Origin: a virus
Virus record (IMG/VR): IMGVR_UViG_3300028388_003515
Location: 1 to 26,347 of that record
Direction: 5' to 3' (one strand)
Length of the DNA stretch: 26,347 bases
Below the pieces are notes generated by a model. The model searched no databases and was not told the DNA's origin. It saw only the letters and a list, made by a program, of their open reading frames with translations. The translations under genes were made by a program, and so were the position numbers. Shown here in pieces: positions 3,304 to 14,605 of this stretch (positions within the stretch are counted from its first letter, which is position 1; the number at the start of each line of letters is the position of its first letter).

Positions 3304-5874
3304 CTAAATCCCCAAGAGAAACTCGGCGTTTTCTTCTGCGGCCCGCAACTGGACCCGCTCGATGATATTCCACATAATGGTTTCCAACTCCGGGTAGATG
3401 CCGCTCATTTCCAGCCGGATAAGGGCACCGTCGCCGGACTGCATGCGCCGGGTGCGCTCGTCGATAAACCGCCGCTGGGCCTCGTTTAGTTTTTTTTGTT
3501 CTTCGAAGTTTTCGCGCTGAAGCTGCTGCTCGCGCTCGATCAGGTCGAAAATTTCATAAAAGTGCCACCCGGACACATCGCCAAAAGCCCCGGCAAGGGC
3601 CGATATGGAATCGCTCGTGCTCTCGGTGGTGGTCTTGACCTGGTCTCCCCACAGCTCAAAAACCCGGGTCGTGGCCTCAAGCTCGGCGGTGTCGATTTTC
3701 ACCCTGGCCGTCAAGGCCGTCTGAACGACATCGGCCTGGGCACGGATCCGGGCGATGTCAAGGTCTGTTCTGATCTTGAGCGTCTTTTCGTCGGGCAACT
3801 CTTCTTCGATGACTTGGGCCGCACGCTCTATGGTGGGAAGATCGGGTTCCGCTCTAAACGTTGTCGTGCGCTCTTCTGGCGCGGCCTGTTCCCACTGGCG
3901 CTTGAACCGCTCCATATCCGTTTCGGCCGCAGCGGTATCTGCCAAAATCCGCGTGGTGCGCTCTGTCGGGATGTTTTCCACCCCCCGCCGGGCCTCGTCG
4001 ACCTGGCCGGAAAGCCCCTTCCAGGCAAGAGAGTAGCCGTCCACCGCCTCTGAAAGCTGCGCCATGCGGTCCTGATTGGCCGCGTCGCGAAACTCGATGA
4101 GGCTGTTTTTCCACTCTTCGAAATGAAGAAAACCGAGCCCCAGATTCCGGTTGAAAATCTCCACGATTTGGAGCAAGTTGCCCACCGTGTCGACAACGAT
4201 CAGCACCAGCGAGTCAAACGCTGTCTGTACCGTGTTCCAAAAACCGGTCACGGTGCCGATCAAAACCTCAAAGACTCGCTTCACCCCTTCGGCGTGCCCG
4301 CCGATGGCGATCAGGGCCGCCGAAACGATCGCCCCGGCATCCACGATGGCCTTGGCCGCCGCCAGGATATTACCGGCGGCCTGCTGGGCCTCGGCGTCGA
4401 GCCGACCGAACCCCTCGATGGCCGTGGCAATACCGGCGATGATCGGGCGAAACGTCTCTACCATTCCGGCAGTGATGTTGATCAGCCCGGACAGGGCGTT
4501 GACGGCAAACTGCACGGCCCGGGCCAGGTCCTCGGGGCGTGTCAAATCAAGGTCTGAAAAGTAGGCCGCGATCTCTTCTCGGGCCGCGCCCAAGGCGTCA
4601 AGCAGCGGGGAAAAGTCGACCTGGTCGAAGGCGTCCGGCAAGATGTCTGCGATCTCGCGAAGCAGGCGGCCCAAATCGTTTCCAAAACCGGACACCGCCT
4701 CGAACACATCGTCGAAAGTGCCGGCGACAACCAGGTTTTGCAGGGCGTTTTCAATCGCCGTGGCCCCGGCAAGCGTGTCGTTGACACCGCTTTTGAGCTC
4801 CGTGCCGGCGGCAATGGCCAGGTTTTTAAACCCCTGCACCAGCCGGTTTAACACCACCTCAGACGACTGCAGCCGGGCGTTTACCTCGCCTGCGATCGAG
4901 CCGGTGGCATCGTAGGCCCGGCCGGTGATTTCCACCTGGTAGGCCAGGGTGTCAAACACCACCGCCATCTTGGCCGCCTGCTCTTTTCCGGCCAATAGCT
5001 GGGTGATGTAGGCTTGCTGGTTGTCGGTAAGCCCGCCCCAGGCTTGTTGCACGTCAAGCAAAATATCCTTGCCGCTTCGAAGCTCGCCGTTTGCGTCTTT
5101 TTGCGACACACCGATCGAAGCAAGGGCCTCTGAGACTTTCGGAACATCTGAGATCAGTCGAAGCAGCCCGGTTCTAAGCGCCCGGGCAGACTCGTCCCCC
5201 GATCGAAAGATCTCGATCACCGGCGTTAGCAGCGCTGCGCCTTCTTCGAAATTGTAGCCCATCTGATACAAGATGGGAGAAAGCGAGGACATGCCCGTGC
5301 CAAGCTCGCGGACGCTCACCGCGTACTCGTTTGACAGGGCGTTTAAAATGTCCATCAGCCGCCGCGCCTCGTCTGCCGGGGCGCGAAAGCCCTTGAGCGC
5401 CGAAATCAGAATCTCCGAGCTTTCCGATGCCTGGATGGATCCGGCGATCACCAGGTCCATGGCGTCGCGGGTCAAGCCCATGGCCTCTTTTGCATCAAAC
5501 CCGGCCTGTTTGAAATCGGCCGTGCTCATGAGCACGTCAGCGGCCGCCTCGCCGTAAGTGTTTGAAAGCTCCAGCGCAGCCTCTGAGGCCGCCTGGATCG
5601 CCTCGGGCTGATCACCCATGACTTTTTGAAGCTCTACCTGGGCGTTTTCAAACTGCACCGTTTCTCGGTGGGCATAGACCAGGCCGCCCACGGCCAGCAG
5701 GGCCAGGGCCGCGTCGATTTTCAAAATCAAATTGGCCGCATTTGCCATGGGCTGTGCGATCCGCTCCAGGTCCGCCCCGAAGCGGTCCATCCTGCCGGCG
5801 ATCAGGTTGACCGTTTTTGAAACCTCGTCGTCACCCCTGAAGATGACCGCCACCGTTTTTTGCACGTCAGCCAA
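3304..5874 (-). CDS. Tail tape measure protein
   Basis: At 856 residues this is the longest gene in the window and it directly follows the tail chaperone frames, the standard place for the tape measure. The N-terminal about 350 residues look like the TP901-type tape measure core: a KASALN-like helical start, FENAQVELQKVMG, TYGEAAADVLMSTADFKQAG, RDAMDLVIAGS and QMGYNFEEGAALLTPVIEIF. There are hydrophobic stretches near residues 45-66 and in the middle (IVDAGAIVSAALIAIGG), and long Ala/Glu-rich helices toward the C-terminus. Tape measure proteins set tail length and help eject DNA through the envelope. The length suggests a siphovirus tail of moderate size. Confidence 0.9.
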   Translation of the reverse strand: MADVQKTVAVIFRGDDEVSKTVNLIAGRMDRFGADLERIAQPMANAANLILKIDAALALLAVGGLVYAHRETVQFENAQVELQKVMGDQPEAIQAASEAALELSNTYGEAAADVLMSTADFKQAGFDAKEAMGLTRDAMDLVIAGSIQASESSEILISALKGFRAPADEARRLMDILNALSNEYAVSVRELGTGMSSLSPILYQMGYNFEEGAALLTPVIEIFRSGDESARALRTGLLRLISDVPKVSEALASIGVSQKDANGELRSGKDILLDVQQAWGGLTDNQQAYITQLLAGKEQAAKMAVVFDTLAYQVEITGRAYDATGSIAGEVNARLQSSEVVLNRLVQGFKNLAIAAGTELKSGVNDTLAGATAIENALQNLVVAGTFDDVFEAVSGFGNDLGRLLREIADILPDAFDQVDFSPLLDALGAAREEIAAYFSDLDLTRPEDLARAVQFAVNALSGLINITAGMVETFRPIIAGIATAIEGFGRLDAEAQQAAGNILAAAKAIVDAGAIVSAALIAIGGHAEGVKRVFEVLIGTVTGFWNTVQTAFDSLVLIVVDTVGNLLQIVEIFNRNLGLGFLHFEEWKNSLIEFRDAANQDRMAQLSEAVDGYSLAWKGLSGQVDEARRGVENIPTERTTRILADTAAAETDMERFKRQWEQAAPEERTTTFRAEPDLPTIERAAQVIEEELPDEKTLKIRTDLDIARIRAQADVVQTALTARVKIDTAELEATTRVFELWGDQVKTTTESTSDSISALAGAFGDVSGWHFYEIFDLIEREQQLQRENFEEQKKLNEAQRRFIDERTRRMQSGDGALIRLEMSGIYPELETIMWNIIERVQLRAAEENAEFLLGI

Positions 5875-5877
5875 GGG

Positions 5878-5997
5878 TCACCGCCCTTTTTCCGGAAAGT
5901 AGTGCTCGTAGAATTTGGCCCATAATCCGCTTTCAACCTCCGTCAGGTATCCTTGCGGGAAGAGGTCTGGTCGGGCTTGGTAGAGAAAGTGCCGGGG
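5878..5997 (-). CDS. Tail chaperone T segment, reached by -1 frameshift from G
   Basis: This frame is open well upstream, but protein-like sequence appears only near its end: LYQARPDLFPQG, then EVESGLWAKFYEHYFPEKGR, stopping 3 bases before the tape measure start. It has no start codon of its own with an SD at a sensible place. It lies in the -1 frame relative to the end of the upstream G gene, which stops inside it at 5943. This is the lambda G/GT arrangement, where a small fraction of ribosomes shift to make a longer chaperone. The upper boundary given is a candidate C-CCC slip site at 5994-5997 and is approximate. Confidence 0.65.
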   Translation of the reverse strand, partial: PRHFLYQARPDLFPQGYLTEVESGLWAKFYEHYFPEKGR

Positions 5998-6512
5998 TCC
6001 ACCTCCGAATCCGCCTCCGGAGCAGAGGTGGAGGGCGTTTCGCACGTCGGCGTCCCTCCAGAGGCGTTCGATTCCCCCGACACGTCGCCCAGGCCGGTCA
6101 GGCGCAAAACCTCTGCCACCAGCTCGCCGAACACCACCGGAAAACTGGTGCACAGCCGCACCGCCGCTTCGTGGTCGATTTGCGGATCCACAGAGGCCGT
6201 TTCGAGCATGTAGATGTTTCGGCTCACCGCCGCCGGGGTGGCCTCTGTCAGCGCCAGGGCCTGCTCTAAGGCCGCCTTGATCTGGGGCACGGCCTTGCTG
6301 GCCAGCGCGGAGGCGATCTCGAGCACGTTTTTGGCGTTGTCGGCCCGCTCCTTTGCGGCGCCCACCTCGTGGCCGGTAAGGTTGCGCACGCGCCACACCG
6401 GCATTTGGCACTCCTTGATATCCTCGAAAAACTCGGCCAGGTCCGGCACCGGCACCGCCGACTCTCGCCGCCGCCATTTTGTTTTTTTAAATTTTTTCGT
6501 GTCAAATTTCAT
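5943..6512 (-). CDS. Tail assembly chaperone (lambda gpG position)
   Basis: The 189-residue protein starts at ATG 6512, overlapping the glycosyltransferase stop as ATGA. The frame is open further upstream, but that part overlaps the glycosyltransferase. It begins with the basic stretch KFDTKKFKKTKWRRR, followed by VPDLAEFFEDIKECQMPVWRVRNLTGHE and a helical middle. The 'WRVRNLTGxE' segment is what I would expect of a phage tail assembly chaperone, and the position just before the tape measure gene agrees. These proteins coat the tape measure during tail assembly and are absent from the virion. The C-terminal Ser/Thr/Pro-rich part (about residues 150-189) overlaps the T frame and is probably a linker. 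Confidence 0.75.
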   Translation of the reverse strand: MKFDTKKFKKTKWRRRESAVPVPDLAEFFEDIKECQMPVWRVRNLTGHEVGAAKERADNAKNVLEIASALASKAVPQIKAALEQALALTEATPAAVSRNIYMLETASVDPQIDHEAAVRLCTSFPVVFGELVAEVLRLTGLGDVSGESNASGGTPTCETPSTSAPEADSEVDPGTFSTKPDQTSSRKDT

Positions 6513-8296
6513 GCTGCCCCCCGCTCTTTTCCCACTGCCTGCGCCGCCGGCGACTGCAGGGTGATGCCCACCCGTGCAAGCTCGCCCGAAACCTGCTTTT
6601 CCATCGCTTCGCGATATGCCGGCCCGGTGCGCTCGATCACTTTGCCAAACCGGTTCAGGGCGCTCATGCCCTCTTCCAGGCGGATCACCGTCAAATAGTA
6701 CAGGCAGAAGGCAAGCGCTTCTGGCGTGTAGTTGTAGACAAAGGCGTTTCCGGCCACCGCGGGGTTTTTGCCGTAGCGGTCGTAGGCCGTCAAAAACCGC
6801 TGCGCCCCTTCCACCACCATGGACGGGTCGCCGGCGGCCAGCCCGCAGCGCACCGCGCACATGGCAACGTCAAGGTCCTCTGGAACCACTCTGACCGCCT
6901 CTTGCAAAATCGTAAGCGCGCGGTCGGTCTGCTTTAGCTCCAGCGCCATGGTGATGGCGTTGTGATAGGCCGATGTGTTGAAATGCTCGTCTTTTTCCCG
7001 CTCGCGGATGTAGGCCGCGCTGGTCTTCAAACACAGCAAACGGTCGGCGTCTCCGCCGCCGGCGCGCACGCGCCAGCCGTAGGCGCAGGCCAGCAAGAAC
7101 AGGGCATGCACGTCTTGCCGATCGTCGTGTATCCGTTTTTTGAGCAGGCCGATGGTTCGCTCGCATTTTTGCCGGATTTTGTCTGCGGGCAGGTCGTATC
7201 CGTAGTGGCGGAACCATGCCTCCGGGTAGCGGATCGACTCGGGCCGGCCGGTCCACACCGGCCAGTTGTGCACGATTTTTTCATAATGGACTGTGCCGCT
7301 TCGAAATACCCGGGCCATGTTGGTGCGCATGGGAAGCTCGCCTTCGATCACGTCCTCGCAGGTCAGGGCCACCGCCGACACATCTTCTGGAAGGCGGCCC
7401 AGCCATTGCTTGAACGCACCCGGATCGGCGCAGCAAAGCTCCTCGTCTGCATCGATCTGATACAGCCAGTCGCCCGTGGCGTAGGATATGCCCTGGTTTC
7501 TGTGGGCTGAAAAGTTGTCTTCCCACGGGTGATGAAAAACCTTTGCACCGTAGGATTCGCAAATCTTTACCGAATCATCTGCGGATCCGGTGTCGACCAC
7601 CACGATCTCGTCTGCCAGGTCCTCTACAGACGACAGGCAGCGGTGCAGGTTTGGCTCTTCGTCTTTGACCATCATAAAAACCGACACCGACACCGGTTTT
7701 GCTACCGTCGCAGCGCCCGGCAGATAACCGTAGCGCCGCGCCAGCTTGCGCACACGGCGGTAAAGTTTTTTATCAAGCGCTTTTAACGCCGACCAGGTCA
7801 CCGGCTCGTGCGGCCGGCTGTTGACCGTTTCGGGCAGTTGCGGCAGGGCCTCCGGCACATCGACACCCAGCGCATCGCAAAAGGCGGCAAGTGTTTCGGG
7901 CCTTTTTAAATCCTCCACCCGGTAAAAAAGCGCCGGGTGTATTTTTTCGATCAAATCGTTCCAGGCCACGTAGGAGTGCATGGCCCACCTGAGCCGGCTG
8001 CCGCCGCCGGGGTGGCCGACCCGGTCGTGGATGTATCGCCAGGCCTCGTCTGTGAGCGTAACGCTCGATGCGATTACTCCCAAAGGATGGCGCACCTGGT
8101 GCAGCAGGGGCGAAAAGGCATAGTCTGTTACCGGTGCGTTCAGCCACGGCACAGAGCCTCCGGGGGCCGCGTGCAGCCAGGATACGCAACCGTCGCGGCC
8201 GACCGTCTCGTGGCCAACGTCTTGTCCCAGCAGGCGCAAAAGCGCCGCCGTGTATCCGGTGGCGCTTCGCGGGTGTGCGGTGATCAAAAAGGGCAT
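6509..8296 (-). CDS. Sulfotransferase-like / GT2 glycosyltransferase / TPR fusion in the tail cluster
   Basis: The 595-residue protein appears to have three modules. Residues 1-195 are sulfotransferase-like: the 5'-phosphosulfate loop HPRSATGYTA (8-17), a 3'-phosphate site LLHQVRHPLGVIASS (64-78) and RVEDL near 126-130, the usual order of PAPS-binding motifs. Residues about 203-390 are a GT2 glycosyltransferase: MMVKDEEPNLHRCLSSV, IVVVDTGSADDSV, HRNQGISYATGDWLYQID and a metal-binding DADEE at 282-286. The rest is helical, TPR-like, as in SunS-type protein glycosyltransferases. It would transfer a sugar, and perhaps sulfate, to a protein or glycan; the acceptor is unknown. It lies between the tail tube and tail chaperone genes and overlaps the latter by 4 bases. 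The start has an AAAGGAA SD. The GT2 call is firm; the sulfotransferase call is good but lower. Confidence 0.85.
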   Translation of the reverse strand: MPFLITAHPRSATGYTAALLRLLGQDVGHETVGRDGCVSWLHAAPGGSVPWLNAPVTDYAFSPLLHQVRHPLGVIASSVTLTDEAWRYIHDRVGHPGGGSRLRWAMHSYVAWNDLIEKIHPALFYRVEDLKRPETLAAFCDALGVDVPEALPQLPETVNSRPHEPVTWSALKALDKKLYRRVRKLARRYGYLPGAATVAKPVSVSVFMMVKDEEPNLHRCLSSVEDLADEIVVVDTGSADDSVKICESYGAKVFHHPWEDNFSAHRNQGISYATGDWLYQIDADEELCCADPGAFKQWLGRLPEDVSAVALTCEDVIEGELPMRTNMARVFRSGTVHYEKIVHNWPVWTGRPESIRYPEAWFRHYGYDLPADKIRQKCERTIGLLKKRIHDDRQDVHALFLLACAYGWRVRAGGGDADRLLCLKTSAAYIREREKDEHFNTSAYHNAITMALELKQTDRALTILQEAVRVVPEDLDVAMCAVRCGLAAGDPSMVVEGAQRFLTAYDRYGKNPAVAGNAFVYNYTPEALAFCLYYLTVIRLEEGMSALNRFGKVIERTGPAYREAMEKQVSGELARVGITLQSPAAQAVGKERGAA

Positions 8297-8318
8297 GAGG
8301 GGGTTCCTTTGCCAGGCA

Positions 8319-8341
8319 GGGCCGGCACGAGGTGCCGGCCC
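8319..8341. promoter_or_regulatory. GC-rich hairpin between tail tube and glycosyltransferase genes
   Basis: A perfect 10-base stem (GGGCCGGCAC with GTGCCGGCCC) closes a 3-base GAG loop. It lies between the tail tube stop and the glycosyltransferase SD. On the transcribed minus strand there is no T-run after it, so it may act as a transcript 3'-end stabiliser or attenuator. On the plus strand it is followed by TTTTTT and would look like a terminator for antisense transcription. Confidence 0.7.
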
Positions 8342-8381
8342 GCTGTTTTTTCACGGCGCCGGGCGCTGCGATCGCTGCACC

Positions 8382-9410
8382 CTAGCTGGTAAACTCTGCC
8401 GCCGGCACTTCTGCCCCGATCGAGACGGTGGCCTGGATCTGCCCGTCCGGGGGATATTGGCGGGCCACGCCGTTTTTCCCCTGGCACAGGATGTAGGCCG
8501 TTTTGTCGCGGTCCGGGAAGAACTTGAACGTTAGGATTTCGTCTTTTTCGCGAATGAGCGTGTCTGAAACCCCGTCGTTTAGCATGCACGAAAAGCCGCC
8601 GGCGCCGAGACTGGAAGACACCGACCCCACCGTGCCGCCGTACACCTGCTGCGAGCTGATCGAATGGGTGTTTTCCGGCGGGGTGAAATTCCATGCGCGC
8701 TCGACGTCGGAAAGCTCCGGCTCGTAGTATTGGATGTAGACCTTTTTTGCGCAGGCCGAGGTGTCGGTGTGGATCAGCGGCAGGGCCGAGCCGAACTCGA
8801 TGTAGGCGTTTTGCTTGGCCGCCACCGAGGCATACTCGCCGTCTCCTACGTTGTTTTCCGTCCAGAGAGGATAGTTGTAATACTCTGCGTGGGTGCCGAC
8901 GGTCTGGAAAATCTCCGCACTGGTCAGGGCGGCCGAAGCGCTGGCGCTAACCCGCACCTGGCCGATCTCCACATCGTTTTTCGGAATCAGCGGCGGGCCG
9001 CCGGCAGCGTCACGCGTTTCTGAAAAACTGGTTCCTGTGCCGATGGTGCCCTCCACGACGGCAATCGAACCGTCTGACTGCATGACGATCGAATGCACCT
9101 GCGCCTTTGCATCCGTGGACGCCCGTGTAATGGTGGTGGTGGTGGCCGTCACGGTCTGCTCGACGCCCTTAGAGTAGGCCTTGAATGCGGCAATGGTCAC
9201 TTTGTCGTCGTCGGCATGGGTGGACAGCACCTGGCTGCCGGAACTGATGCCGTTGGGGCGCACGCTGGGGGTGTAGCCGGACTTGCCGCTCCACAGGGTG
9301 CCGCCGGACACCGTGAAAACCTCGTGATCGCCGGAATCTGTCATGGCCGCGTAGGCGTTCAGCGTCTGACCGCCCTCGACCTGGACTTTTGCGTTGTCAG
9401 CGGATGGCAT
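8382..9410 (-). CDS. Major tail tube protein
   Basis: The 342-residue protein starts at ATG 9410 behind a strong SD (AAGGAGA). It opens MPSADNAKVQVEGGQTLNAY and is beta-rich throughout, with Ser/Thr/Gly-rich strands and few long helices. Gene order (tail terminator, this gene, chaperones, tape measure) matches lambda gpU-gpV-gpG/T-gpH once the inserted glycosyltransferase gene is set aside. It is longer than lambda gpV (246 residues), which may mean an extra surface domain. The strong SD fits high expression. The tube call rests on position and general character, not on a diagnostic motif. Confidence 0.72.
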   Translation of the reverse strand: MPSADNAKVQVEGGQTLNAYAAMTDSGDHEVFTVSGGTLWSGKSGYTPSVRPNGISSGSQVLSTHADDDKVTIAAFKAYSKGVEQTVTATTTTITRASTDAKAQVHSIVMQSDGSIAVVEGTIGTGTSFSETRDAAGGPPLIPKNDVEIGQVRVSASASAALTSAEIFQTVGTHAEYYNYPLWTENNVGDGEYASVAAKQNAYIEFGSALPLIHTDTSACAKKVYIQYYEPELSDVERAWNFTPPENTHSISSQQVYGGTVGSVSSSLGAGGFSCMLNDGVSDTLIREKDEILTFKFFPDRDKTAYILCQGKNGVARQYPPDGQIQATVSIGAEVPAAEFTS

Positions 9411-9433: not shown

Positions 9434-10150
9434 TTACTGTGCAAACGGGTTGCCGCGCACGGTGGCGTAGCGAATGTGAAACAGGGCGGCCACGGCGACG
9501 GCCTCGTCTTCTTCGTCTGGATACCACTCTGATCCGCCGCCGGCGTAAAAGATGTCGTCTGCCAGCCCGCCGGTCACCAAATCGACCGGCGCCGTTGCAG
9601 ATACCGAGCCGCTCACCGTGGCGACGTTGGCCTGAGCGGTGGTGTCCAGGTTTTCTCCGTCGGTAAACACGCCAGAGCGGCGGCGAAGGGTGAGCGTGCC
9701 TGCGGCATTGCCGTTTGCCCAGGCGCCGGAAGACACACTCAGCGTTTCAACAACGGCCGTTGCCGAAGAAGATGCCCCGGTGACGGTTCCTCCAGGCACG
9801 ACGTCGGTTGTGCCGCCGGAAACAAAATCCATGGAAAACTGAGGCCCGGTCATGGCCTCGATGACGTCGCCGAGCATCGCCTCTGAAAGGGCCGAAGGCT
9901 CGCCAGTGCCGATGACGTGGTAAAGCTCCACCTTTACCGGAAAGACGATTTGAGCCCGGGAATATTCGCGGTCCGGCTCTTCTGGCTGAGGCCAGATCAC
10001 CGCCGCGTTGAGTTCGTTTTCAGGGTCCAGGTGATGGCGCACACGAAATACGTGGCGGCCGCAATCGGTTGCAAAGCCACGCACGGTGCGAATGGCGGCA
10101 AGCCGGGTCTCTATGGCGGATATGATCTGTTCGCGGATGGTGTCTGGCAT
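9434..10150 (-). CDS. Tail terminator-like protein (lambda gpU position) with inserted beta domain
   Basis: The 238-residue protein starts MPDTIREQIISAIETRLAAI, a typical beginning for small tail-completion/terminator proteins, and has PVKVELYHVIGTGEPS in the core. Residues about 112-192 are a Gly/Thr/Ser/Val-rich insert (GGTVTGASSSATAVV, AGTLTLRRRSGVF, TDGENL) of a kind I associate with repeat domains of phage structural proteins. The terminator core then resumes with DDIFYAGGGSEWYPDEEDEA and an AALFHIRYAT strand. The family is usually about 130-160 residues, so the insert explains the extra length. It lies one base downstream of the protein Z gene. Its expected job is to cap the tail tube and join it to the head. 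Confidence 0.7.
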   Translation of the reverse strand: MPDTIREQIISAIETRLAAIRTVRGFATDCGRHVFRVRHHLDPENELNAAVIWPQPEEPDREYSRAQIVFPVKVELYHVIGTGEPSALSEAMLGDVIEAMTGPQFSMDFVSGGTTDVVPGGTVTGASSSATAVVETLSVSSGAWANGNAAGTLTLRRRSGVFTDGENLDTTAQANVATVSGSVSATAPVDLVTGGLADDIFYAGGGSEWYPDEEDEAVAVAALFHIRYATVRGNPFAQ

Positions 10151-12757: not shown

Positions 12758-13297
12758 CTACGAGGTCAGAATCGACCGGGTGTATTCAAGCCAGAAACCG
12801 GTGGCGTAAAGCGCGTCGTTGTCATGGTCCCCGGGGGTCAGCTCGATGGTTAAGGTCTGGGCGCCCGCAGGAACCTTTGATGCTAAAATGGTGATCCTCG
12901 TTTCATCTAATGCACCGCCCAAAATGGGAAAGCTGCTCATGTATTCGATTTTAAAGTCTTTTTCATTAAAATACGCATCGATATAAACAAACGGATGGTC
13001 TGTAAACCCGCTCATGGCCGCCCTGAAATGCAGGACGATGTTTGAACCGGTGTCCAGATCCGGCGCAAGAGAAATCTGGTTGACGATGGGATTGACATCC
13101 GAAGCGGCCCATTTCAGGAGCAGTGCGCTGTCGCTGTCTGCGCTGGTGTATTCCAGGATCGGCGTGGAGTTCTTGGCCAGGGTCCCGCCGTGCGAAGTTA
13201 GGTTCTGGATGTCGTTGCTGCCGACTTCGCGCCATTGGGTGAGAGGTAATGGGATGAAGCGCTGTGCCGACAAAAGATCCTGGTAGATCTCGGCCAG
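12758..13297 (-). CDS. Beta-rich head structural protein, second copy of duplicated module
   Basis: The 179-residue reading begins at CTG 13297 (LAEIYQDLLSAQRFIPLPLT), with GGAGGT 9-10 bases upstream; no ATG, GTG or TTG lies at a sensible place in frame. The middle is divergent from the first copy (YMSSFPILGGALDETRITIL), but the ends match, including VPAGAQTLTIELTPGDHDND and FWLEYTRSILTS. The intact frame despite divergence implies it is translated. The family occurs near phage cement and capsid genes; function is unknown, with a surface or head-completion role possible. It overlaps the upstream cement gene out of frame by 100 bases. Start and expression mechanism are uncertain. Confidence 0.6.
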   Translation of the reverse strand: MAEIYQDLLSAQRFIPLPLTQWREVGSNDIQNLTSHGGTLAKNSTPILEYTSADSDSALLLKWAASDVNPIVNQISLAPDLDTGSNIVLHFRAAMSGFTDHPFVYIDAYFNEKDFKIEYMSSFPILGGALDETRITILASKVPAGAQTLTIELTPGDHDNDALYATGFWLEYTRSILTS

Positions 13298-13629
13298 GCT
13301 GCCCCGACCTCCACGGAGATCCCCTGTGCCGTGCCGCTGCTGGCATCGGAGAGCTTGCCGTCCGCGGCGCCATAAAGCACAGTGCCGCGGCCGATGGCCG
13401 AGTCGACGACACACTCGATCTCGAAAATTCCAGGAGCGTTGTTGAGCTTGACCGCCACCATGTCGCCGTCTAGCACGGCATGCTCAGTAACGCCGATAAA
13501 GTCTTCGCCGGCATCGGCGTAGATCACCTCGGGTGGATCCCTGGTAGTGCCGGATTCAATTTTGACCCGGCGCTTGGCCGCCAGGGTCTTTCCGGCATTA
13601 AACGTTGCTATTTTTTCGTTCCAGGGCAT
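13198..13629 (-). CDS. DUF2190-like capsid cement protein, second copy
   Basis: The 143-residue frame starts at ATG 13629 with GAGG 6 bases upstream and reads MPWNEKIATFNAGKTLAAKR, then GEDFIGVTEHAVLDGDMVAV and RGTVLYGAADGKLSDASSG. This is the pattern of DUF2190-type decoration proteins that stabilise expanded capsids. Compared with the first copy it lacks 16 residues (DNQHIQVALWNVKATT) near the C-terminus of the family core through a clean 48-base loss. After that the frame runs about 33 residues into the next gene in a different frame (AWPRSTRIFCRHSASS), a tail with no family resemblance. Confidence 0.72.
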   Translation of the reverse strand: MPWNEKIATFNAGKTLAAKRRVKIESGTTRDPPEVIYADAGEDFIGVTEHAVLDGDMVAVKLNNAPGIFEIECVVDSAIGRGTVLYGAADGKLSDASSGTAQGISVEVGAAWPRSTRIFCRHSASSHYLSPNGAKSAATTSRT

Positions 13630-13688: not shown

Positions 13689-14225
13689 CTACGAGGTCAG
13701 AATCGACCGGGTGTATTCGAGCCAGAAAGCTGTGGCGTAAAGCGCACTATTGTCATGGGCCCCGGGGGTCAGCTCGATGGTCAGCGTTTGGGCGCCGGCG
13801 GGAACATCTGCCGCGGCGATGGTGATGGTCTTCTCGGCGTAGGTTGCGCCCGATACGGCCGCGCTGACGTCCTCGACCTTGGTGTCTCCCTCGTTGAAAT
13901 AGGCGTCACTGGCCACGGTGGGCGTGTCTGTGGCCCCGCTCATGGCCGCCCTAAAATGCAGGACGACGTCGGAACCGGTGTCCAGATCCGGCGGAAGGGG
14001 AACTTCTGTGACGATTGGATTGACGTCTGACGTGGCCCAATTCAGGCGCAGCGCGCTGTCGGTGTCTCCGTTGGTGTATTCCAAAATCGGCGTGGAGTCT
14101 TTGGCCAGGGTCCCGCCGTGCGCGGCCAGGTTCTGGATGTCGTTGCTGCCGACTTCGCGCCATTGGGTGAGAGGTAATGGGATGAAGCGCTGTGCCGACA
14201 AAAGATCCTGGTAGATCTCGGCCAG
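13689..14225 (-). CDS. Beta-rich head structural protein, first copy of duplicated module
   Basis: The 178-residue reading begins at CTG 14225 (LAEIYQDLLSAQRFIPLPLT), then TPILEYTNGDTDSALRLNWA, a PPDLDTGSDVVLHFRAAMSG core and VPAGAQTLTIELTPGAHDNS, ending FWLEYTRSILTS. It looks like a small beta-sandwich structural protein. No canonical start lies at the expected N-terminus; an AAGG lies 10 bases before the CTG, and a GTG 24 bases further upstream is an alternative. It overlaps the end of the cement frame by 184 bases, lying in the -1 frame relative to it. A frameshift product fused to the cement protein is another possibility. Confidence 0.62.
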   Translation of the reverse strand: MAEIYQDLLSAQRFIPLPLTQWREVGSNDIQNLAAHGGTLAKDSTPILEYTNGDTDSALRLNWATSDVNPIVTEVPLPPDLDTGSDVVLHFRAAMSGATDTPTVASDAYFNEGDTKVEDVSAAVSGATYAEKTITIAAADVPAGAQTLTIELTPGAHDNSALYATAFWLEYTRSILTS

Positions 14226-14605
14226 GCGGTGGTGGCCTTGACGTTCCACAGCGCCACCTGGATGTGCTGGTTGTCTGCCCCGACCTCCACGGAGATCCCC
14301 TGTGCCGTGCCGCTGCTGGCATCGGAAACCTTGCCGTCTGCGGCGCCATAAAGCACAGTGCCGCGGGCGATGGCCGAGTCTACGACACACTCGATTTCGA
14401 AAATTCCGGGGGCGTTGTTGAGCTTGACCGCCACCATGTCGCCGTCTGCCACGTCGTACTCGGTAACACCGATAAAGTCCTCGCCGGCATCGGCGTAGAC
14501 CACCTCGGGTGGATCGTTGGTGGTGCCGGATTCGATTTTGACCCGGCGCTTGGCCGCCAGGGCTTCGCCGGCCTTAAACGTTGCGACTCCGTCGTTCCAG
14601 GGCAT
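14042..14605 (-). CDS. DUF2190-like capsid cement protein, first copy
   Basis: The 187-residue frame starts at ATG 14605 behind a strong SD (AAGGAGG, 6 bases). Residues 1-125 look like a complete DUF2190-type cement protein: GEALAAKRRVKIESGTTNDP, GVTEYDVADGDMVAVKLN, RGTVLYGAADGKVSDASSG, and a last strand HIQVALWNVKATTA. These proteins bind capsid outer faces after expansion, like lambda gpD. The remaining about 62 residues (WPRSTRIFCRHSASSHYLSP onward) are the out-of-frame reading of the next gene and look non-native. The simplest reading is that an ancestral stop codon between the two genes was lost by deletion. Confidence 0.78.
   Translation of the reverse strand: MPWNDGVATFKAGEALAAKRRVKIESGTTNDPPEVVYADAGEDFIGVTEYDVADGDMVAVKLNNAPGIFEIECVVDSAIARGTVLYGAADGKVSDASSGTAQGISVEVGADNQHIQVALWNVKATTAWPRSTRIFCRHSASSHYLSPNGAKSAATTSRTWPRTAGPWPKTPRRFWNTPTETPTARCA

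Follow-up and report, generated by a model that had tools for sequence, protein, structure and literature searches.

Why would a phage keep a gene for a sulfotransferase-type domain fused to a glycosyltransferase (GT) among the genes that build its tail? This question is raised by a viral fragment of 26.3 kb, the full 26,347 nucleotides of which form the window analyzed here. An earlier note, made from the sequence alone, had described one reading frame of the window as a sulfotransferase-glycosyltransferase-TPR fusion between the tail tube and tail chaperone genes, and had inferred that a tail protein, perhaps the tube, carries a glycan that may be sulfated. The relevant features are as follows.

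9434..10150, minus strand: tail terminator, upstream neighbor of the tube gene (phrog_4204, 8e-6)
8382..9410, minus strand: tail tube protein, probable substrate, 342 aa (model match to tubes; PHROG 30644, function unnamed)
6509..8296, minus strand: fusion gene with sulfotransferase-type domain, GT2 domain and TPR tail, 595 aa (open reading frame, translation, family matches, model)
7703..8296, minus strand: N-terminal sulfotransferase-type domain, residues 1-198 (invariant residues in nine relatives, Sulfotransfer_3 in relatives, weak PDB profile matches)
7200..7690, minus strand: GT2 catalytic domain, about residues 203-365 (DADEE at 282-286, Glycos_transf_2, SunS fold)
6512..7199, minus strand: C-terminal TPR-like helical tail, about residues 366-595 (model helices; CHIP and OGT TPR matches, Z about 14)
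5943..6512, minus strand: tail chaperone, gpG-like (precedes the tape measure gene; 29% identity to its counterpart in locus L003; ATGA overlap with the fusion gene)
3304..5874, minus strand: tape measure protein (Pfam PhageMin_Tail 3.5e-38, TIGR01760)

The claimed reading frame of 595 residues was confirmed; it is encoded on the minus strand, a point missing from the earlier note. It starts with an ATG at 8296, shortly downstream of a ribosome-binding site of its own (AAAGGA), and ends with a TGA at 6511-6509. The proposed coupling to the chaperone gene was also found, as the stop codon overlaps the chaperone ATG (6512-5943) in an ATGA at 6512-6509. In the direction of transcription, the genes follow a lambda-like order: terminase, portal (named via a sequence match to L003), protease, capsid, gpZ-like protein, terminator, tube, fusion, chaperone and tape measure. 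The fusion gene is thus placed between the tube gene and the chaperone and tape measure genes, as described. The neighbors had been named by position; the name of the tube is now supported by its fold, that of the chaperone only by position and by conservation in relatives.

A second frame at 5878-6512 (minus strand), conserved in relatives, overlaps the chaperone gene at its end; together with a GGGGGAA near 6070, it suggests a programmed frameshift of the lambda G/GT type. The gap between the tube and fusion genes (8297-8381, minus strand) contains a strong hairpin with a 10-bp stem (GGGCCGGCAC/GTGCCGGCCC; -49 kcal/mol and z -3.4 for the whole stretch) and no T-run, which was not found in the corresponding junctions of relatives when these were inspected by eye. 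Two closely similar tandem reading frames (12758-13414 and 13689-14390, minus strand) lie between the protease and capsid genes, just behind the former; they are apparently duplicated and possibly encode decoration proteins. The terminator (9434-10150) contains a Ser/Thr-rich insertion that is absent from shorter relatives of about 150 aa.

Residues 205-325 of the fusion protein matched Pfam Glycos_transf_2 (9.5e-21), and its structural model (mean pLDDT 90.8) aligned to SunS with a Z of 26.8 over 293 residues. Membership in GT2 is indicated by this Pfam match, the DADEE motif and the SunS-like model, that is, by a GT-A fold with a DxD metal site. The TPR was only weakly detected by sequence (TPR_14, E 0.04), but the helical-repeat tail is visible in the model. 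The six fusions described below conserve the DxD (D282 and D284, both invariant), H343-N344 and the PAPS-loop residues. The domain architecture given in the earlier note (PAPS-type motifs, GT2 with DADEE, TPR-like C-terminus) is therefore in agreement with our results.

The PDB sequences nearest to the fusion protein were GmaR, the best match, and SunS/ThuS. SunS is derived from the SPbeta prophage. The NCBIfam model for the SunS family of S-glycosyltransferases (TIGR04195) was matched with 2e-21, but the score of 76 bits did not reach the equivalog cut-off of 350. Like the fusion protein, the peptide S/O-glycosyltransferases SunS and ThuS, which function in glycocin biosynthesis, are soluble and consist of a GT2 domain followed by a helical tail. 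They are, however, bacteriocin-linked, whereas the fusion is tube-linked and has an additional sulfotransferase-type domain at its N-terminus. ThuS glycosylates peptides (PMC12457901). GmaR of Listeria is a flagellin GlcNAc transferase and antirepressor that also combines GT2 with TPR, and its substrate is a polymerizing filament protein (PMC9638930). It differs in that it lacks a sulfotransferase domain, has an antirepressor domain and is found in another genomic setting.

The assignment of the N-terminal domain rests on its motifs and on its family rather than on the window protein alone. The PAPS-type motifs HPRSAT, VRHP...S and VEDL are present, and P9 R10, H29 E30, V68 R69 P71, S77 and E128 D129 are invariant in nine relatives, in which the 5' PAPS loop (HPRSxT) and the 3' phosphate-binding motif (VRxP...S) are invariant or nearly so. 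The window domain by itself matched Pfam Sulfotransfer_3 only below threshold (E 0.15); four of the nine members of the fused-type domain family matched it, with a best E of 1.8e-6. Searched against the PDB, the profile of the family gathered mostly sulfotransferases, all of them weakly (E 0.04 or weaker). A different fold of this domain would have refuted the earlier note; the profile matches of the family gave no such refutation, although the fold of the domain alone was not searched. In the model, residues 1-198 have a pLDDT of about 90, and the structural matches listed covered residues 199-543 only. The invariant His-Glu pair sits 20 residues past the loop arginine. In human TPST2, about 21 residues separate the catalytic Glu from the loop Arg that precedes it, and we therefore regard E30 as a candidate catalytic base.

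Compared with the PAPS sulfotransferases of the Sulfotransfer_3 and Sulfotransfer_1 type, the fused domain has both the 5' and the 3' PAPS loop and its relatives match Pfam, but it is divergent and, at about 195 aa, short, and it groups with standalone genes of phage C48C1 and contigs L004-L006. These standalone relatives of about 196 aa were found in L002, L004, L005 and L006, and the one in the Kyanoviridae phage C48C1 is annotated as hypothetical. In L004-L006 they lie near carbamoyltransferase-like or sugar-transfer genes, as judged by eye.

The model of the neighboring tube protein (pLDDT 79) matched monocin MttP (Z 11.6) and lambda gpV (Z about 10), aligned over residues 1-342. Both this fold and the position between terminator and chaperone are those of a lambda gpV-type tube. 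An inserted domain at residues 50-180, approximately, matched a baseplate protein of phi812 (Z 12.6) as well as receptor-binding protein domains; we infer that it faces outward.

In order to compare tube loci, we used profile searches, which yielded 80 distinct loci with this tube; the viral matches were the best 80 of 354. A GT-TPR gene lies at the tube in 27 of these 80 loci (best 80 of 354 viral matches), in 18 cases before and in nine after the tube gene. This is not a population frequency, since the searches favored window-like tubes and the viral matches were limited to the best 80 of 354. The search for the same fusion at the tube in other phages, which the earlier note had suggested, was successful: among the best 80 of 354 viral matches, six loci carry it (the window, L003/L089, L090, L107, L118 and L156). 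Three others (L106, L150 and L152, the same contigs as L038, L039 and L030) have separate genes, with the GT before and the sulfotransferase after the tube (again best 80 of 354), and this separate sulfotransferase scores above the Sulfotransfer_3 cut-off. The fused and the separate sulfotransferases belong to different subfamilies, and their alignment is confined to the PAPS loop. It thus seems that one and the same activity was acquired from more than one source next to this GT. Other loci of this selection (best 80 of 354) have different partners: in ten, a GT-B glycosyltransferase precedes the GT in a fusion (Pfam checked for L021), and in three, a hexapeptide-repeat gene of the acyltransferase type lies between tube and GT. 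In five more the GT has no partner, and two of these are truncated by contig ends. Scans of viral contigs with single sequences, either the whole protein or the N-terminal domain, returned nothing, whereas profile scans did find relatives. The fusion was absent from annotated phage and plasmid records, which gave matches to the GT only and one match to the N-terminal domain.

The GT is found at the tube in all 19 whole records with the cassette. L118 has a second GT-TPR gene in addition to its fusion, about 5.6 kb after the tube and beyond the tape measure gene. None of 20 tube records without the cassette has such a GT elsewhere, with the cassette records as positive control, although many of the 20 are fragments. 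Homologues scattered without tail linkage, which would have refuted the earlier note, were thus not seen: within the tube family, the GT is either at the tube or absent from the record. Each of the five other fusion records has a single copy of the fused-type sulfotransferase domain, and a search of the 15 remaining cassette records did not find it. The GT is missing from every genome locus with the tube (Desulfosarcina, Desulfobulbales, Methylobacter and others); in the sample of the Desulfosarcina phylum, one of 395 genomes has the tube.

On the tube tree, the presence of the GT requires two changes. All GT-bearing tubes fall into one clade of 31 tubes (93% SH-aLRT, quick search), and the GT is absent from 49 tube loci. 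Presence of a sulfotransferase requires five changes on the same tree, indicating that tube and GT stay together while the partners turn over. On the GT tree, placement before or after the tube takes three changes (two on the tube tree) and the sulfotransferase fusion two; its deep branches are weak. L088, L091 and L093 (Desulfosarcina widdelii) are nested in the GT clade and apparently lost the GT once. This trio also lost five conserved Ser/Thr columns of the tube (window residues 24, 93, 112, 248 and 318; Fisher p 0.008 over columns, a post hoc test on columns that are not independent). Between zero and one such columns are lost in GT-bearing trios, one to three in pairs and up to four in unrelated GT-less trios. 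We therefore treat this loss as a lead only. No residue cleanly specific to GT presence was found among the related tubes compared, and the C-terminal Ser of the tube did not discriminate between GT-bearing and GT-less tubes.

The same GT family occurs elsewhere in phages. A GT-TPR gene lies downstream of the major capsid gene (phrog_212), mostly with one small gene between, in L008-L010, L012, L013, L016, L026, L027, L031 and L034-L036; L034 has two copies in a row. In L037 (3-3450), a portal-type connector, a GT-TPR and a weak Sulfotransfer_3 match (8.7e-6) follow one another, a possible second pairing of GT and sulfotransferase in another phage. Adjacency to the tube is therefore not universal. 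As far as gene neighborhoods can tell, the family tends to sit beside genes for virion proteins in general.

With moderate confidence, we favor the explanation that the fusion works in two steps as an enzyme on the tail tube of its own phage, and that it represents one version of a modular cassette for tube glycosylation. With an architecture like that of SunS/ThuS and GmaR, the GT2 domain and TPR tail would recognize freshly synthesized tube subunits while these are in the cytosol, and the GT2 would move a sugar from a nucleotide sugar onto an exposed tube residue; substrate, sugar and site are all inferred. The fused N-terminal domain may then add sulfate from PAPS, most likely onto that sugar, which is likewise an inference. 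As the comparison of loci shows, the GT-TPR is the part fixed beside the tube in this cassette, while the partner is a fused or separate sulfotransferase, a fused second GT or a hexapeptide acyltransferase-type gene. The predicted outcome is a dense glycan coat on the tail, negatively charged in the window phage.

Several other explanations have to be weighed against modification of the tube. The enzyme could act elsewhere in the virion, on the terminator, the chaperone product, the tail tip or a decoration protein, and adjoin the tube merely through operon order. The Ser/Thr-rich insertion of the adjacent terminator would fit this, as would the location of the same GT family after the capsid gene in other phages. 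However, the GT is found on both sides of the tube, which is its only constant neighbor, longer terminators occur both with and without the GT, and GT presence tracks tube phylogeny; we therefore consider another virion substrate unlikely, though not negligible. Phage glycosyltransferases often change the host O-antigen, and the PHROG category of this GT family is moron. The enzyme might thus alter host surface glycans or other host molecules, as in seroconversion, with the tail operon as a handy site for late expression. Yet the fusion protein contains no hydrophobic segment (maximum 19-residue hydropathy 1.42) and so lacks the C-terminal transmembrane helices of GtrB-type enzymes, its nearest solved relatives use peptides or proteins, and the GT is linked to one structural gene. 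A host target is accordingly quite improbable.

Glycosylation of the tube without sulfation would result if the N-terminal domain were a PAPS-superfamily fold reused for binding. Its short, divergent sequence and weak Pfam score in the window protein leave room for this, but the invariance of the PAPS-loop residues and the His-Glu pair in nine relatives, together with the recognizable separate sulfotransferase that takes its place in three, make it very unlikely. That the gene is mobile cargo or a GmaR-like regulator without any virion role is scarcely credible. GmaR is indeed both glycosyltransferase and antirepressor (PMC9638930) and the gene is missing from many tube loci, but catalytic residues are conserved in both domains, the partners are other glycan-type enzymes, and whole records with the tube have the gene placed at this one gene only.

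Modification of the tube thus remains the preferred explanation, and the reading of the earlier note, a tail glycan that may be sulfated, is supported, although modification of the tube is inferred rather than measured. L106, L150 and L152, in which the GT and a clear sulfotransferase flank the tube gene, support a sulfated tube glycan more than the fusion alone does. The glycan of the window phage is probably sulfated; this is inferred from a divergent domain, and neither sulfate transfer nor the PAPS supply of the host has been demonstrated. Related phages with the GT probably coat their tails with tailored sugars, again without any modification having been demonstrated. The broader idea, that swappable cassettes tailor tube glycans throughout a clade of uncultured long-tailed phages and lead to sulfation in at least nine of them, is tentative, and we hold it with rather low confidence. 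The benefit of a coat (against proteases, in adhesion or against defense sensors) is a matter of speculation. Since some bacterial defense systems (DSR2) sense the tail-tube protein (PMC10981675, PMC11087589), a coat might hide new tube subunits from such sensors, an untested speculation.

Glycans on capsid and tail-tube subunits have been described for mycobacteriophages, which also use phage glycosyltransferases (Freeman et al. 2023, as cited in PMC12619734). No sulfotransferase appears to be reported for that system. We found no report in the open-access literature of a phage sulfotransferase combined with a glycosyltransferase, or of a tube-linked sulfotransferase, which is weak evidence of absence. 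As far as open-access papers go, tube glycosylation is known, whereas a tube-linked sulfotransferase and a modular cassette are new.

A clade of tail tubes thus travels with a dedicated GT and with partners that can be exchanged, among them two unlike sulfotransferases. An enzyme and its substrate can therefore be named as a pair on sequence grounds, and simple co-expression would allow this pair to be tested. To our knowledge, no sulfated glycoprotein is known from a phage particle so far, and a tube with a sulfated glycan would be the first. If our explanation is correct, sulfation would join the chemistry of phage particles and a soluble two-step protein-modifying enzyme would be gained. 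The purpose of tail glycans could then be tested by comparing tubes that come with the cassette and tubes that lack it, the GT-less L088, L091 and L093 among them.
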